A stretch of 64,000 bases of DNA. It comes from Neiella marina (GTDB taxonomy: Bacteria > Pseudomonadota > Gammaproteobacteria > Enterobacterales > Neiellaceae). The first letter of the stretch is position 1. Every line of letters begins with the position of its first letter. Positions 8,536 through 25,539 of the stretch are shown here, piece after piece. The stretch lies in the NCBI RefSeq assembly GCF_002165625.1, contig NZ_NGNS01000006.1, forward strand, positions 124,001-188,000, read 5' to 3'. A model generated the notes under the pieces. It was not told the origin of the DNA. It did not search any database and saw only the letters and a list, made by a program, of their open reading frames with translations. The translations under genes and the position numbers were made by a program.

Positions 8536-11301
8536 ATGACAAAGTACGGTTTGCGCACCTGGGTAATCTTACTGACATTAGCACCAACTGTGCTGGTGAG
8601 CTTGTTGCTGGGCTCGTATTTTACGGTGACAAGATATGAGCAACTCGAGATGCAGTTGGTCAAAGACGGCACCAACATTATTGAGCCACTAACCATTGCT
8701 GCGGAACAGGGCTTAGTGACCAATGATCGCGAAAAATTGATGCGTTTGTTAAGTGTCACCCATCGCAAACATTCCCCGGCCGTTCGCTCAATCACAGTAT
8801 TCACCCCTGATCATGAGGTCTTTGTCAGCTCCAACTTTCATCGCCAGTTTGACTCGTTCCGACTTACTCCGGATGAGCCGATGCCAGACACCACTGACAT
8901 TGAGTATAACTACAGCAACAACTCGATTTTGTTTCGAGCCCCAATCCTAAGCTCGGCAAAGCAGGATGTTGGTTTACCACCGACACCGTTGGGCTATCTG
9001 ACGCTGCAGTTAGACAACTCGCCGACCATGCTCAATCAGCATCGAGCAGCATTCTATACCTTCTTAATTGTGCTGCTTGGGATCTGCGTTTGTATGGTGT
9101 TTACCATTCGCTTAGTCCGTAAAGTGACCAAGCCAATTACCGAGATGGTTCATGCCATCGATAATATTCGCAAAGGTAAGCTTGAGACTCGACTTGGCGG
9201 CCAACACATCGGCGAGCTCGATGACTTGAAAAATGGTCTTAACGCCATGGCGAAATCCATTTCCGAATACCACTTGGAAATGCAGAACAATATTGAGCAA
9301 GCAACCAGCGATTTACGTCAAACCCTAGAACAGATTGAAATTCAAAACGTTGAATTGGACTTAGCCAAACGCAGGGCGCAAGAGGCTGCCCGGGTCAAAA
9401 CTGAGTTCTTGGCCAACATGAGTCACGAGCTACGTACTCCGCTCAATGGGGTCTTGGGTTTCTCCCGTCAACTGTTAAAAACATCACTGACGACGTCACA
9501 ATATGACCAAGTGATGACCATTGATAATTCGGCGAAAAACTTACTGGGTATCATCAATGACATTCTCGACTTATCGAAACTAGAGGCCGGTAAGCTGACA
9601 CTCGAGCAAGTGCCATTTATTTTGCGTGATGCAGTCGATGAGGTGATGCAGTTGCTAGCACCAACGGCACACCATAAAGGTATCGATTTTGCCTTTATCA
9701 TCGATAACAAAGTGCCCGATGATCTGCTCGGCGACGCCCTGCGGATCAAGCAGGTCATCACCAATCTGGTTGGTAATGCGATTAAATTTACCGAGCAGGG
9801 TAGCGTCACTCTGCGGATTAGCGTTGATCAAGTTCGCGGCGACAATGTGTGCCTCAAGCTCGAAGTGAAGGATACCGGTGTTGGTATCTCCAATGAGCAG
9901 CAAGAAGCGCTGTTCCAAGCATTTGCGCAAGCTGACGCAAGCATCTCAAGACGTTTTGGCGGCACCGGCTTGGGTCTGGTGATCACTAAACGACTGCTAG
10001 CAGAAATGGATGGTGATATTGGCCTAGAGAGTGAGTTGCATCAGGGCTCATATTTCTGGTGTACCCTGTGCTGCCGTCTAAGTCCGATTGCGTTAGGCGA
10101 TCACAGCCAGTCAGAAATGTTGGCAGGCAAAACCGCACTGATCTACGAGCCGCAAGCTTACTCGCTGGAAAGCTTGGAAACCCCTATGCATGGCTGGCTG
10201 ATGAACGTTACCCCATGTCGGAGCAAGCAACAATGGCAGTCGCTACTTAAGCGCAGCGTCAAGTACGACTACGTCGTCGTTGCAATTGACGAATTTGATA
10301 GCAATCAGCTGCAAGCTCAGTTGCAGGCTCTCACTTACATTACCCGTCATGCCGTGCTGCTATCGGCAGTATCCAGTCAACATGAACTAGAACACCTTGA
10401 GAATTACCAAGGCATGTTCATTAGTCACTTACGCAAACCTTTGGTTAGCAACCGCTTGCTCAATGCGTTGCAGCGCATGACCCGAACCACCAAAGCATTC
10501 CCTGTCGGTCATCAATCGCTTCAGCGAGCCGAAAAAATGCCAATGAAAGTATTGGCAGTGGACGATAATCCAGCCAACCTGAAGTTGATTGTCACCTTGC
10601 TCAAAGAGAAAGTAACGCAAGTTGCAATGGCTAATAATGGCGAGCAAGCAATTGAAATGGCAGCACAAGAGTCATTTGATATCATTTTCATGGATATTCA
10701 AATGCCCAATGTTGATGGCGTAACCGCGACACAAACCATTCGCCAAGGGGAATACAATCAGCACACCCCGGTGGTCGCCGTTACAGCGCACGCCTTGCCT
10801 GAAGAAAAAGCCAACTTGCTAGCCAGCGGTATGGATGATTATCTGACCAAACCCATCGAAGAAAATTTACTCGATAGTATTCTGCAGCACTGGTATACCT
10901 TCAACCAGCAAAAGCAGCAATCGAAAGAGCTTTGCCACCCCCTAATCGATTGGCAGCAAGCGCTTAATCAAGCCGGAGGCCGAGCCGATTTAGCCAAAGA
11001 AATGCTGCATTTACTGATCGAATCACTGCCCGAATCACGAGATGCAATTGAGCAGGCATGGCAGGCAAAAGACGCCGCAACGCTAAAAGCTCAGGTGCAC
11101 CGTTTGCATGGTGCTTGTTGCTACGCAGGCATCCCAAAGCTGAAGTCAGTAGTTGGCACCCTCGAACGTTTGCTCAAGGAGCAATATGGCCAACAAGACG
11201 TTGAACCAGAATATTTCGAATTGATGGATTTGCTGGAGCAGCTCATTGAATCGCCGCCTCAAGGGCTGACCGATTCTAATACCACAGTCGCCAATGCATA
11301 G
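8536..11301 (+). CDS. barA: Hybrid sensor histidine kinase BarA
   Basis: Tripartite membrane kinase that phosphorylates the response regulator UvrY/GacA, controlling CsrA-antagonist small RNAs and carbon flow. The order is: transmembrane segment (about 10-30), periplasmic region, second segment (about 165-188), HAMP, coiled linker, HisKA with His297 in NMSHELRTP, an ATPase domain with GTGLGL, a degenerate receiver-like stretch, a true receiver with Asp720 in FMDIQMP, and a C-terminal phosphotransfer domain with His858. All three phosphorelay residues are present. The gene lacks an obvious SD. Its 3' end overlaps the convergent acpS by 43 bases. Confidence 0.95.
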   Translation: MTKYGLRTWVILLTLAPTVLVSLLLGSYFTVTRYEQLEMQLVKDGTNIIEPLTIAAEQGLVTNDREKLMRLLSVTHRKHSPAVRSITVFTPDHEVFVSSNFHRQFDSFRLTPDEPMPDTTDIEYNYSNNSILFRAPILSSAKQDVGLPPTPLGYLTLQLDNSPTMLNQHRAAFYTFLIVLLGICVCMVFTIRLVRKVTKPITEMVHAIDNIRKGKLETRLGGQHIGELDDLKNGLNAMAKSISEYHLEMQNNIEQATSDLRQTLEQIEIQNVELDLAKRRAQEAARVKTEFLANMSHELRTPLNGVLGFSRQLLKTSLTTSQYDQVMTIDNSAKNLLGIINDILDLSKLEAGKLTLEQVPFILRDAVDEVMQLLAPTAHHKGIDFAFIIDNKVPDDLLGDALRIKQVITNLVGNAIKFTEQGSVTLRISVDQVRGDNVCLKLEVKDTGVGISNEQQEALFQAFAQADASISRRFGGTGLGLVITKRLLAEMDGDIGLESELHQGSYFWCTLCCRLSPIALGDHSQSEMLAGKTALIYEPQAYSLESLETPMHGWLMNVTPCRSKQQWQSLLKRSVKYDYVVVAIDEFDSNQLQAQLQALTYITRHAVLLSAVSSQHELEHLENYQGMFISHLRKPLVSNRLLNALQRMTRTTKAFPVGHQSLQRAEKMPMKVLAVDDNPANLKLIVTLLKEKVTQVAMANNGEQAIEMAAQESFDIIFMDIQMPNVDGVTATQTIRQGEYNQHTPVVAVTAHALPEEKANLLASGMDDYLTKPIEENLLDSILQHWYTFNQQKQQSKELCHPLIDWQQALNQAGGRADLAKEMLHLLIESLPESRDAIEQAWQAKDAATLKAQVHRLHGACCYAGIPKLKSVVGTLERLLKEQYGQQDVEPEYFELMDLLEQLIESPPQGLTDSNTTVANA

Positions 11302-23741: not shown

Positions 23742-24731
23742 CTAGTCGCAGGTCTGTTGCTTATCAGAGACGGATATCAGTTCGACTAGCACCAAGGTAT
23801 CAACCAGAGACTCGCCTTCCATTGCCGGACGTTGTTCAATGACGCCATTGACGCTGATTAGCAAGGGCTCCCCAGGTGCTGACCGCCATTGTTGATATTG
23901 CCGTTCTAACTGCAGACGAATTGGATTCTCAGCAACAGGCCAACGACGACCAGTACTGCATTCCATAAATAGCGCAGCATCAGCCATGTAACGAAAATCA
24001 CCGGTTAATCGCTGAGCTGAAACCATTGCTTCTGGGGTGTCTCGGAGCCGCTGGATCGGCTCTACTTCGATGGTTAGCTCGCTCGGTTGAGTCGGTTCAA
24101 CCCCGTAATGACGTGTGCTGCTAAACAATAATTGATTATTGGCGGAAATGGTCGCTCTAACCGAGTAGCGCCGGTTTGGTTCAAATTGCGATTTCATCGC
24201 CCCCAAGGTGAATGCTATCGGCACTTGGGAGTTAATGAGTTGAGTGCTGCTGGCAATGAGCTTGGCAGGAGCATCTGCCAGTGACACATCATTGAGGGTG
24301 ACACGCAACACCGCGTCAGGCGGCAAAGCGATGCGCTGGCGATAATTTACCTCACCAGAGATAACTGTGACCCGCTCATCGGCGCGAATATAGCGGCCAG
24401 AAAACAAGCTTCGTCCCTGCAATTCCAGCGCCGACGCGGACAGTGAACCGACAATGAGTTGCTCAGTCTGAGGTTGAGGGTAACGATCGGTGTTGGTAGA
24501 TAGCAGCAAGCGATTATCTGCGGCACTGAACTGCCACGTTGCACCTTGCATGCTAGCAATGCCCAACAGACTGAGGCGACCATCAGCGTGCAGCAGCAGC
24601 CCTTGCTTATGACCATCTTGAACTTGTAGCCAAGCACCAACAAGCTCATCGGTCGGATGCATTTGCGGTTGACAGCCAAACATCAGAGCCACACCAGCAA
24701 ACAACACAGCATACAACTTCCGACTAACCAT
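23742..24731 (-). CDS. Composite lipoprotein: NlpE-like halves around a YbaY-like domain
   Basis: Predicted outer-membrane lipoprotein of 329 residues, with a lipobox ending at Cys20 (ALMFGC). Residues about 28-115 resemble the small beta-barrel of NlpE (W, DG and L-rich pattern) but lack its CXXC. Residues 124-224 resemble the YbaY/YscW domain (GEVNYRQRIALPPDAVL, then LRVTLNDVSLAD). Residues 243-329 match the NlpE C-terminal domain (FRYMADAALFMECSTGRRW, a LERQY element, LLISVNG), with cysteines at 258 and 328 where E. coli NlpE has its disulfide pair. NlpE reports surface contact and lipoprotein or disulfide defects to the Cpx system. A similar role here is inference. SD GGGAG precedes the ATG. 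Confidence 0.75.
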   Translation of the reverse strand: MVSRKLYAVLFAGVALMFGCQPQMHPTDELVGAWLQVQDGHKQGLLLHADGRLSLLGIASMQGATWQFSAADNRLLLSTNTDRYPQPQTEQLIVGSLSASALELQGRSLFSGRYIRADERVTVISGEVNYRQRIALPPDAVLRVTLNDVSLADAPAKLIASSTQLINSQVPIAFTLGAMKSQFEPNRRYSVRATISANNQLLFSSTRHYGVEPTQPSELTIEVEPIQRLRDTPEAMVSAQRLTGDFRYMADAALFMECSTGRRWPVAENPIRLQLERQYQQWRSAPGEPLLISVNGVIEQRPAMEGESLVDTLVLVELISVSDKQQTCD

Positions 24732-24767: not shown

Positions 24768-24962
24768 TCATGACTTAGAAGCGGCAGCGTTGCCAAAGAT
24801 ACAATGTTGAGCATAGTCCTGAGAATCAGATTCGGACCATAAAGTTTTATCGATCTTGGCCTGTTTTTCACACCATTGCGGACTGCCAACATCATTACAA
24901 CAAGCTTGAAGCAGCAATAGCAAAACGACCGCCACACCATAACGGATAAATTTCAAAACCAT
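24768..24962 (-). CDS. DUF3012-family small lipoprotein
   Basis: A 64-residue protein with a hydrophobic signal (VAVVLLLLLQAC) ending in a lipobox at about Cys21. After it come the family features I recall for DUF3012: VGSPQWCEKQ, a middle lysine/tryptophan stretch, and DYAQHCIF. Two cysteines in the mature part may pair. Function is unknown. It lies 36 bases upstream of the composite lipoprotein on the same strand and may be cotranscribed. The AGGA upstream is unusually close to the ATG. Confidence 0.75.
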   Translation of the reverse strand: MVLKFIRYGVAVVLLLLLQACCNDVGSPQWCEKQAKIDKTLWSESDSQDYAQHCIFGNAAASKS

Positions 24963-25050: not shown

Positions 25051-25539
25051 TCACCAGTTTAAGGTAAGAGTTTGTTGCTGATAATTGACGATCCCTTGGT
25101 GCTTGACTAAAAAGTCGGTTCCCAAGATACCAACAATCGGCTGCGGCGAAGAGATGCGGCGAATATGATGTAAATCGGTACTGTAGAAATCGGGAGTTGG
25201 GAATACTGCCATACCAATTTCCAGATCAATGACATCTAAGTCTTTCATGGACTGACGTTTGGTCCCCAAGCCAGCCAGCTTGGTTCGACTTCTATTCGGG
25301 CTGACATCAATCCCGAGTTGTTTGGCGGTGCGCTTGTCGATCAAGGAAATACCGGCCGCAGTGTCAATTAGCATCGCTGTAGGTTGCATACCGTTGAATG
25401 ATACTTCGATAATCAAGTGACCGCTTTCAGCAAGAGAAAACGGAACGACCACCTGCTTTGCTGGCTCGATAGCGTTTACACCAAAAACGGCACCAAGAAA
25501 TGTCAGTGATACCACAAACCGAATGACGACACTGGTCAT
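25051..25539 (-). CDS. Exported retropepsin-like aspartic protease
   Basis: A 162-residue protein with a signal peptide (cleavage probably after VNA near residue 24). The rest is a single-domain pepsin/retropepsin fold: AMLIDTAAGISLID around the catalytic Asp, the later hydrophobic VGILGTDFL element (the ILG box), and a C-terminal beta strand. A single domain implies it would work as a dimer. The active-site triplet is Asp-Thr-Ala where the classical motif is Asp-Thr-Gly. The SD is a perfect AGGAGG six bases before the ATG, much stronger than its neighbours'. Substrate unknown. Confidence 0.8.
   Translation of the reverse strand: MTSVVIRFVVSLTFLGAVFGVNAIEPAKQVVVPFSLAESGHLIIEVSFNGMQPTAMLIDTAAGISLIDKRTAKQLGIDVSPNRSRTKLAGLGTKRQSMKDLDVIDLEIGMAVFPTPDFYSTDLHHIRRISSPQPIVGILGTDFLVKHQGIVNYQQQTLTLNW

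Follow-up and report, generated by a model that had tools for sequence, protein, structure and literature searches.

A Neiella lipoprotein combining Lipocalin_3-type, YbaY and NlpE C-terminal domains has lost the NlpE_N domain

The lipoprotein gene and its domains

The window (the whole 64,000-nucleotide stretch of the Neiella marina genome that was analysed) carries at positions 23742-24731 of its minus strand a 329-aa open reading frame, which is a real gene; the plus-strand reading of the same interval is full of stops. A signal peptide is followed by the lipobox LMFGC at residues 16-20, with Cys20 as the predicted lipidated residue, and the lipobox cysteine is present in all three aligned orthologues. 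According to the Lol sorting rule of E. coli, the residue at position +2 after the lipidated cysteine decides the membrane destination of a lipoprotein. Because this residue is Gln and not Asp in the window protein, sorting to the outer membrane is expected under the E. coli rule. The search of a plasmid collection with the window protein gave no full-length match.

One flank of the gene consists of ilvIH, an aspartic protease gene and a DUF3012 gene, the opposite flank of ygfZ, sdhE, nadB and rpoE, and all four proteins of this type that we found share this locus. The ilv, nad and rpo neighbours were named by their sequences. The DUF3012 gene ends 36 bp upstream of the lipoprotein gene in a neighbourhood kept in the four genomes, and the two genes are possibly co-transcribed. 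The aspartic protease gene (window 25051-25539, minus strand) codes for a 162-aa retropepsin-like (clan AA) protein and is conserved beside the lipoprotein pair. The features of the locus are collected in Table 1.

Table 1. Coordinates of the lipoprotein features and of the upstream DUF3012 gene in the window
Feature	Position	Strand	Basis
64-aa DUF3012 small lipoprotein	24768..24962	-	PF11216 39.7 bits; synteny
Signal peptide and lipobox, residues 1-20	24672..24731	-	sequence
Lipocalin_3-type domain at the N-terminus (residues 20-118), distinct from NlpE_N	24378..24674	-	PF12702; hhalign vs NlpE_N 0.3%; 3hty E 0.025
YbaY/YscW domain, residues 119-217	24081..24377	-	PF09619; PDB 5wec; hhalign vs E. 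coli YbaY
Short linker, residues 218-239; site of NlpE_N in the G409/G429 orthologues	24015..24080	-	alignment and Pfam of four-domain orthologues
NlpE C-terminal OB domain, residues 240-329	23745..24014	-	PF17185; PDB 2z4h; hhalign 99.7%
Cys258 codon, first Cys of the presumed OB-domain disulfide	23958..23960	-	sequence; column conservation
Cys328 codon, second Cys of the presumed OB-domain disulfide	23748..23750	-	sequence; column conservation

The first-pass annotation had described a lipoprotein of three domains with a YbaY/YscW-type domain in the middle, and this was borne out. The middle domain scored 94.7 bits with PF09619 (cut-off 22.6; residues 123-211), it matched 5wec in the PDB (E 5.5e-18), and the comparison with E. 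coli YbaY gave 99.1% in hhalign, with 44% identity over 85 aligned columns. The likeness of the window protein to YbaY and other PF09619 lipoproteins is that of this domain: E. coli YbaY is a single-domain lipoprotein, whereas in the window protein YbaY is one of three domains. A reading of the YscW-type domain as a type III secretion pilotin was rejected, as no type III secretion genes adjoin the gene, whose neighbours are ilvIH, the aspartic protease, DUF3012, ygfZ, sdhE and nadB.

The C-terminal domain was likewise identified as had been proposed. It scored 77.4 bits with PF17185 (NlpE_C, cut-off 22; residues 238-328), its profile matched NlpE_C with 99.7% in hhalign, the FRYMADAA and LERQY elements are present, and Cys258 and Cys328 align with the C-terminal cysteines of E. 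coli NlpE. The structures of E. coli CutF/NlpE (PDB 2z4h and 2z4i) match this domain only, as does the NCBIfam equivalog model for NlpE (NF007814), which scored 63.4 bits with a cut-off of 243. The window protein is the only PF17185 protein of its genome. NlpE_N (PF04170) had no match in the window protein or anywhere in the window genome and the related genome G447, and the CXXC motif is absent from the window protein. Thus, the window protein resembles E. coli NlpE/CutF (PF04170 plus PF17185) in being a lipoprotein that ends in an OB domain, with the cysteine pair as well as the MADAA and LERxY elements, and cpxRA-cpxP also occur in the window genome. It differs in being without the NlpE_N signalling domain and CXXC, and it carries a Lipocalin_3-type domain and YbaY in front instead.

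The N-terminal domain had been taken for an NlpE-like barrel that lacks CXXC. The absence of CXXC was confirmed, but the likeness to NlpE was not. A profile built from five N-terminal domains, compared with an NlpE_N profile from 32 sequences, gave an hhalign probability of 0.3%, and HMM searches agreed; as a positive control, the third domain of the four-domain orthologues (see below) together with a domain from genome G386 matched NlpE_N with 97.9% (E 5e-13). The domain instead matched Lipocalin_3 (PF12702) weakly, with 21.0 bits at residues 28-81 (cut-off 20.2), and PF12702 scored 16.7 bits, below the cut-off, in the closest relative and 22.0, 20.9 and 30.1 in the other three. The best solved relative in profile searches was the lipocalin-like BT_0869 (PDB 3hty), a single-domain Bacteroides protein, with a weak E value of 0.025. 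3hty was also the first structural match of an AlphaFold2 model of the domain alone, which was of low confidence (pLDDT 51, pTM 0.43) and was taken as weak support only; the model of the full protein, made from two sequences, was set aside (pLDDT 38, pTM 0.24). Although the structure models are poor, the sequence comparisons thus argue against an NlpE-like barrel in the N-terminal half. NlpE_N itself is a lipocalin-like barrel (PMC6538781), so a distant common fold may be what the first-pass annotation had picked up, and such a remote common fold of the two domains is likely.

Among the 395 genomes of the order, the N-terminal domain was clear in five genomes of the window family, with three further weak matches. 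The 249-aa protein L039 of G386 has the N-terminal domain and is without NlpE domains. We considered it as a Lipocalin_3-YbaY ancestor and left it out, since its second half matched YbaY with only 1% in hhalign.

Orthologues and the loss of NlpE_N

The survey of the 395 genomes revealed the N-terminal, YbaY and NlpE_C domains together in one protein in four of them: the window genome, G447, G409 and G429. Of these, G447 was matched to Neiella litorisoli (L008), the protein of which is 67% identical to the window protein, and N. litorisoli was the only match in a contig scan with the single window protein as the query. The three-domain form occurs only in these two genomes. In the orthologues of G409 (L011, 426 aa) and G429 (L010, 430 aa) Pfam found the order Lipocalin_3, YbaY, NlpE_N, NlpE_C, with PF04170 scores of 20.9 bits in G409 and 34.4 bits in G429 (cut-off 22). 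The CXXC motif of NlpE_N is kept as CADC in G409 and lost in G429. These two orthologues have the locus, the Lipocalin_3-type domain, YbaY and NlpE_C in common with the window protein and, unlike it, carry NlpE_N between YbaY and NlpE_C. In the alignment the window protein and its N. litorisoli counterpart are without just the NlpE_N stretch, roughly 100 residues directly upstream of NlpE_C.

These comparisons indicate that the N-terminal domain and NlpE_N are separate domains, which stand side by side in the orthologues. The direction of the change is suggested by the order of the domains, since NlpE_N beside NlpE_C is the native order of NlpE, which argues for a deletion from the four- to the three-domain form. 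Moreover, the tree of the linked IlvIH proteins, rooted on E. coli, joined the window genome and G447 first, then G409 and then G429, and because of this one deletion suffices. A single fusion, in which a Lipocalin_3-YbaY lipoprotein would have been joined to a whole NlpE, followed by one in-frame deletion of NlpE_N on the branch shared by N. litorisoli and the window species, leaving Lipocalin_3 - YbaY - NlpE_C, explains the data. The first-pass annotation had supposed an altered sensor in which the N-terminal cysteines were replaced; CXXC was not replaced within an NlpE barrel, for it is the entire NlpE_N domain that is missing. What remains of the protein is under purifying selection, as pN was 0.19 and pS 0.76 for the mature lipoprotein, with the synonymous sites close to saturation.

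The cysteine pair and related mosaic lipoproteins

The first cysteine column was kept in all 48 aligned NlpE_C domains. The second was kept in 43, and the rows of the remaining five (three f192 proteins and the G409 and G429 orthologues) stop short of it; in a separate alignment of the orthologues, G409 and G429 do have the second cysteine. The conservation of the cysteines in homologues therefore held. However, the pair is also found in NlpE_C lipoproteins that have neither NlpE_N nor CXXC (f189 genomes and others). Since it is near-universal in the NlpE_C domains examined, including proteins without NlpE_N, its presence is no evidence of a switch; it is a mark of the NlpE_C domain and should not be read, alone, as a sensor signature. 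Thus, of the proposal that the protein is a sensor keeping its disulfide switch, the cysteines themselves were confirmed, but the switch is weakly supported, the pair being general to NlpE_C and NlpE_C being dispensable in E. coli.

The single domains are already known, and their combined order in the window family is a new architecture. The order Lipocalin_3-YbaY-(NlpE_N)-NlpE_C was not found in the titles and abstracts of the literature searched, and among the genomes searched it occurred in the window family only. Related mosaics were detected in other genera, namely YbaY-META, YbaY-MliC, NlpE-META, and NlpE_C alone or with other domains. Four papers mention NlpE as well as YbaY and, by their titles, abstracts and the small number of mentions, were taken to be unrelated surveys. 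The combination of NlpE with a META domain was also not found in the literature searched. Proteins of 366-393 aa with NlpE and a C-terminal META-like extension (L040 1081-2217; L105 861-1961; L106 141-1322; L107 943-2043) occur in f2 genomes and, within the window family, in G386, the META domain being assigned by Pfam for L040 and by sequence likeness for the rest. In addition, f192 genomes have a 508-aa lipoprotein that starts with NlpE_C and likewise has no NlpE_N; it is linked to Cpx genes, a cpxRA-like pair being some 7-8 kb away (L108 1908-3434 and 11021-12382; L113 9990-11516 and 682-2031).

The Cpx system and the probable role of the lipoprotein

The search for cpxRA in the window genome, which the first-pass annotation had recommended, was successful. 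The CpxA periplasmic domain (PF16527) had no match in the whole window family, and the conclusion that Cpx is absent from the window genome was overturned by a query with full-length E. coli CpxA and by inspection of the neighbouring genes. This query found a best CpxA-like kinase in all five main genomes; the alignment covered nearly the whole length in four genomes, and in G447 it began at residue 107. For the kinase of the window genome the best NCBIfam model was CpxA (307 bits, the next 185) and for the adjacent regulator CpxR (229 bits, the next 178); neither score reached its curated cut-off. Next to cpxRA lie fieF and a divergent cpxP-like LTXXQ gene, as in E. coli, and the exact CpxR box GTAAAGATTCGTAAA is present in the cpxR-cpxP interval. 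The cpxRA-cpxP-fieF locus and the exact box therefore indicate that Cpx is present in the window genome. In L127 (6235-6249 and 4114-5499) an exact CpxR box stands before a cpxP-like gene, though PF16527 misses the periplasmic region of CpxA throughout this family. A 924-aa open frame with a histidine kinase domain, at about 9400-10026 (+) of the window, was matched in the CpxA search as well. At the lipoprotein gene there was no CpxR box with up to two mismatches, and the total of such sites in the window equalled that expected by chance.

CpxA does occur without NlpE_C. According to a tally made by hand, 113 of the 148 genomes with a CpxA_peri match have no NlpE_C protein; only this side of the tally is informative, because PF16527 misses diverged CpxA. 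G463 of the same family (genome 88% complete) has a full-length CpxA-like kinase and no NlpE_C match.

In E. coli, residues 1-101 of NlpE are sufficient for Cpx activation, deletions into NlpE_N abolish it, and NlpE_C is dispensable (PMC6538781). As NlpE_N, the activating domain in E. coli, is missing, the window lipoprotein has most likely lost the ability to activate CpxA in the manner known for NlpE. NlpE_C does have some bearing on signalling in E. coli, since Delhaye et al., as summarised in PMC6593411, report that Cpx is activated when the C-terminal disulfide is lost. We favour, with some reserve, an outer-membrane lipoprotein facing the periplasm, the three small beta domains of which would serve as binding or scaffolding modules, with Cys258-Cys328 as a presumed disulfide that would stabilise the fold of the OB domain. 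The Cpx response of this clade would then be set off by way of CpxA/CpxP, with no involvement of NlpE. Other genomes have NlpE_C proteins that carry these cysteines but no NlpE_N, which is consistent with this reading. Besides the finding of Delhaye et al., further points speak against it. The OB domain was retained after the loss of NlpE_N, which shows that it has some role that this reading leaves unspecified; Cpx is present and the window protein is the only NlpE_C protein of the genome; and the N-terminal domain lies beside the lipid anchor, which is where E. coli has NlpE_N, so that it may have assumed the role of NlpE_N.

It is unlikely that the protein is still a Cpx sensor, in which the lipid-proximal Lipocalin_3 domain has replaced NlpE_N and makes the contact with CpxA once the lipoprotein is trapped in the inner membrane, while failure of oxidative folding is still reported by the C-terminal disulfide. 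The cpxA, cpxR, cpxP-like and fieF genes lying together with an exact CpxR box, the uniqueness of the NlpE_C protein and the retention of both cysteines agree with such a sensor, and the CpxA periplasmic region, too diverged for PF16527, may have evolved along with another partner. However, the relatives with the same N-terminal domain kept NlpE_N, so that it was no substitute there, the 249-aa protein of G386 has this domain without NlpE domains, its profile does not match NlpE_N, and no site resembling a CpxR box was found at the gene. A sensor rewired after the loss of NlpE_N, in which Lipocalin_3 contacts the diverged CpxA and the redox input comes from the disulfide of the OB domain, appears quite unlikely. 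Likewise quite improbable is a modular lipoprotein of the YbaY/META/MliC/NlpE type for general envelope or metal handling, never linked to Cpx, the modules of which bind small ligands, peptidoglycan or misfolded proteins. The combinations of YbaY with META or MliC-like domains and of NlpE_C with META or other domains in related genomes, as well as the missing CpxR box, fit such a protein, but the ancestor had a whole NlpE with CXXC, as in G409, and all these genomes have a CpxA-like kinase, which makes an earlier Cpx link plausible. Finally, the model of the first-pass annotation, in which a YbaY insertion interrupts an NlpE that lost its N-terminal CXXC, is highly improbable and is refuted by the four-domain orthologues: like NlpE_N, the N-terminal domain probably forms a lipocalin-like barrel, and the order of barrel, other domain and OB domain would suit it, but this domain belongs to another family (0.3% against 97.9% for true NlpE_N), and in the orthologues NlpE_N is a separate domain alongside it, between YbaY and NlpE_C, from where it was lost in this lineage.

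The orthologues form a natural series at one locus: a whole NlpE with CXXC joined behind Lipocalin_3-YbaY in G409, this arrangement without CXXC in G429, and the form without NlpE_N in the window species and N. litorisoli. Because the series stands at one locus and all the genomes have a CpxA-like kinase, the contested question of how the NlpE domains share their tasks could be put to the test outside E. coli. Thus, the window gene may be regarded as a natural deletion test of the Cpx alarm, rather than as a new sensor.
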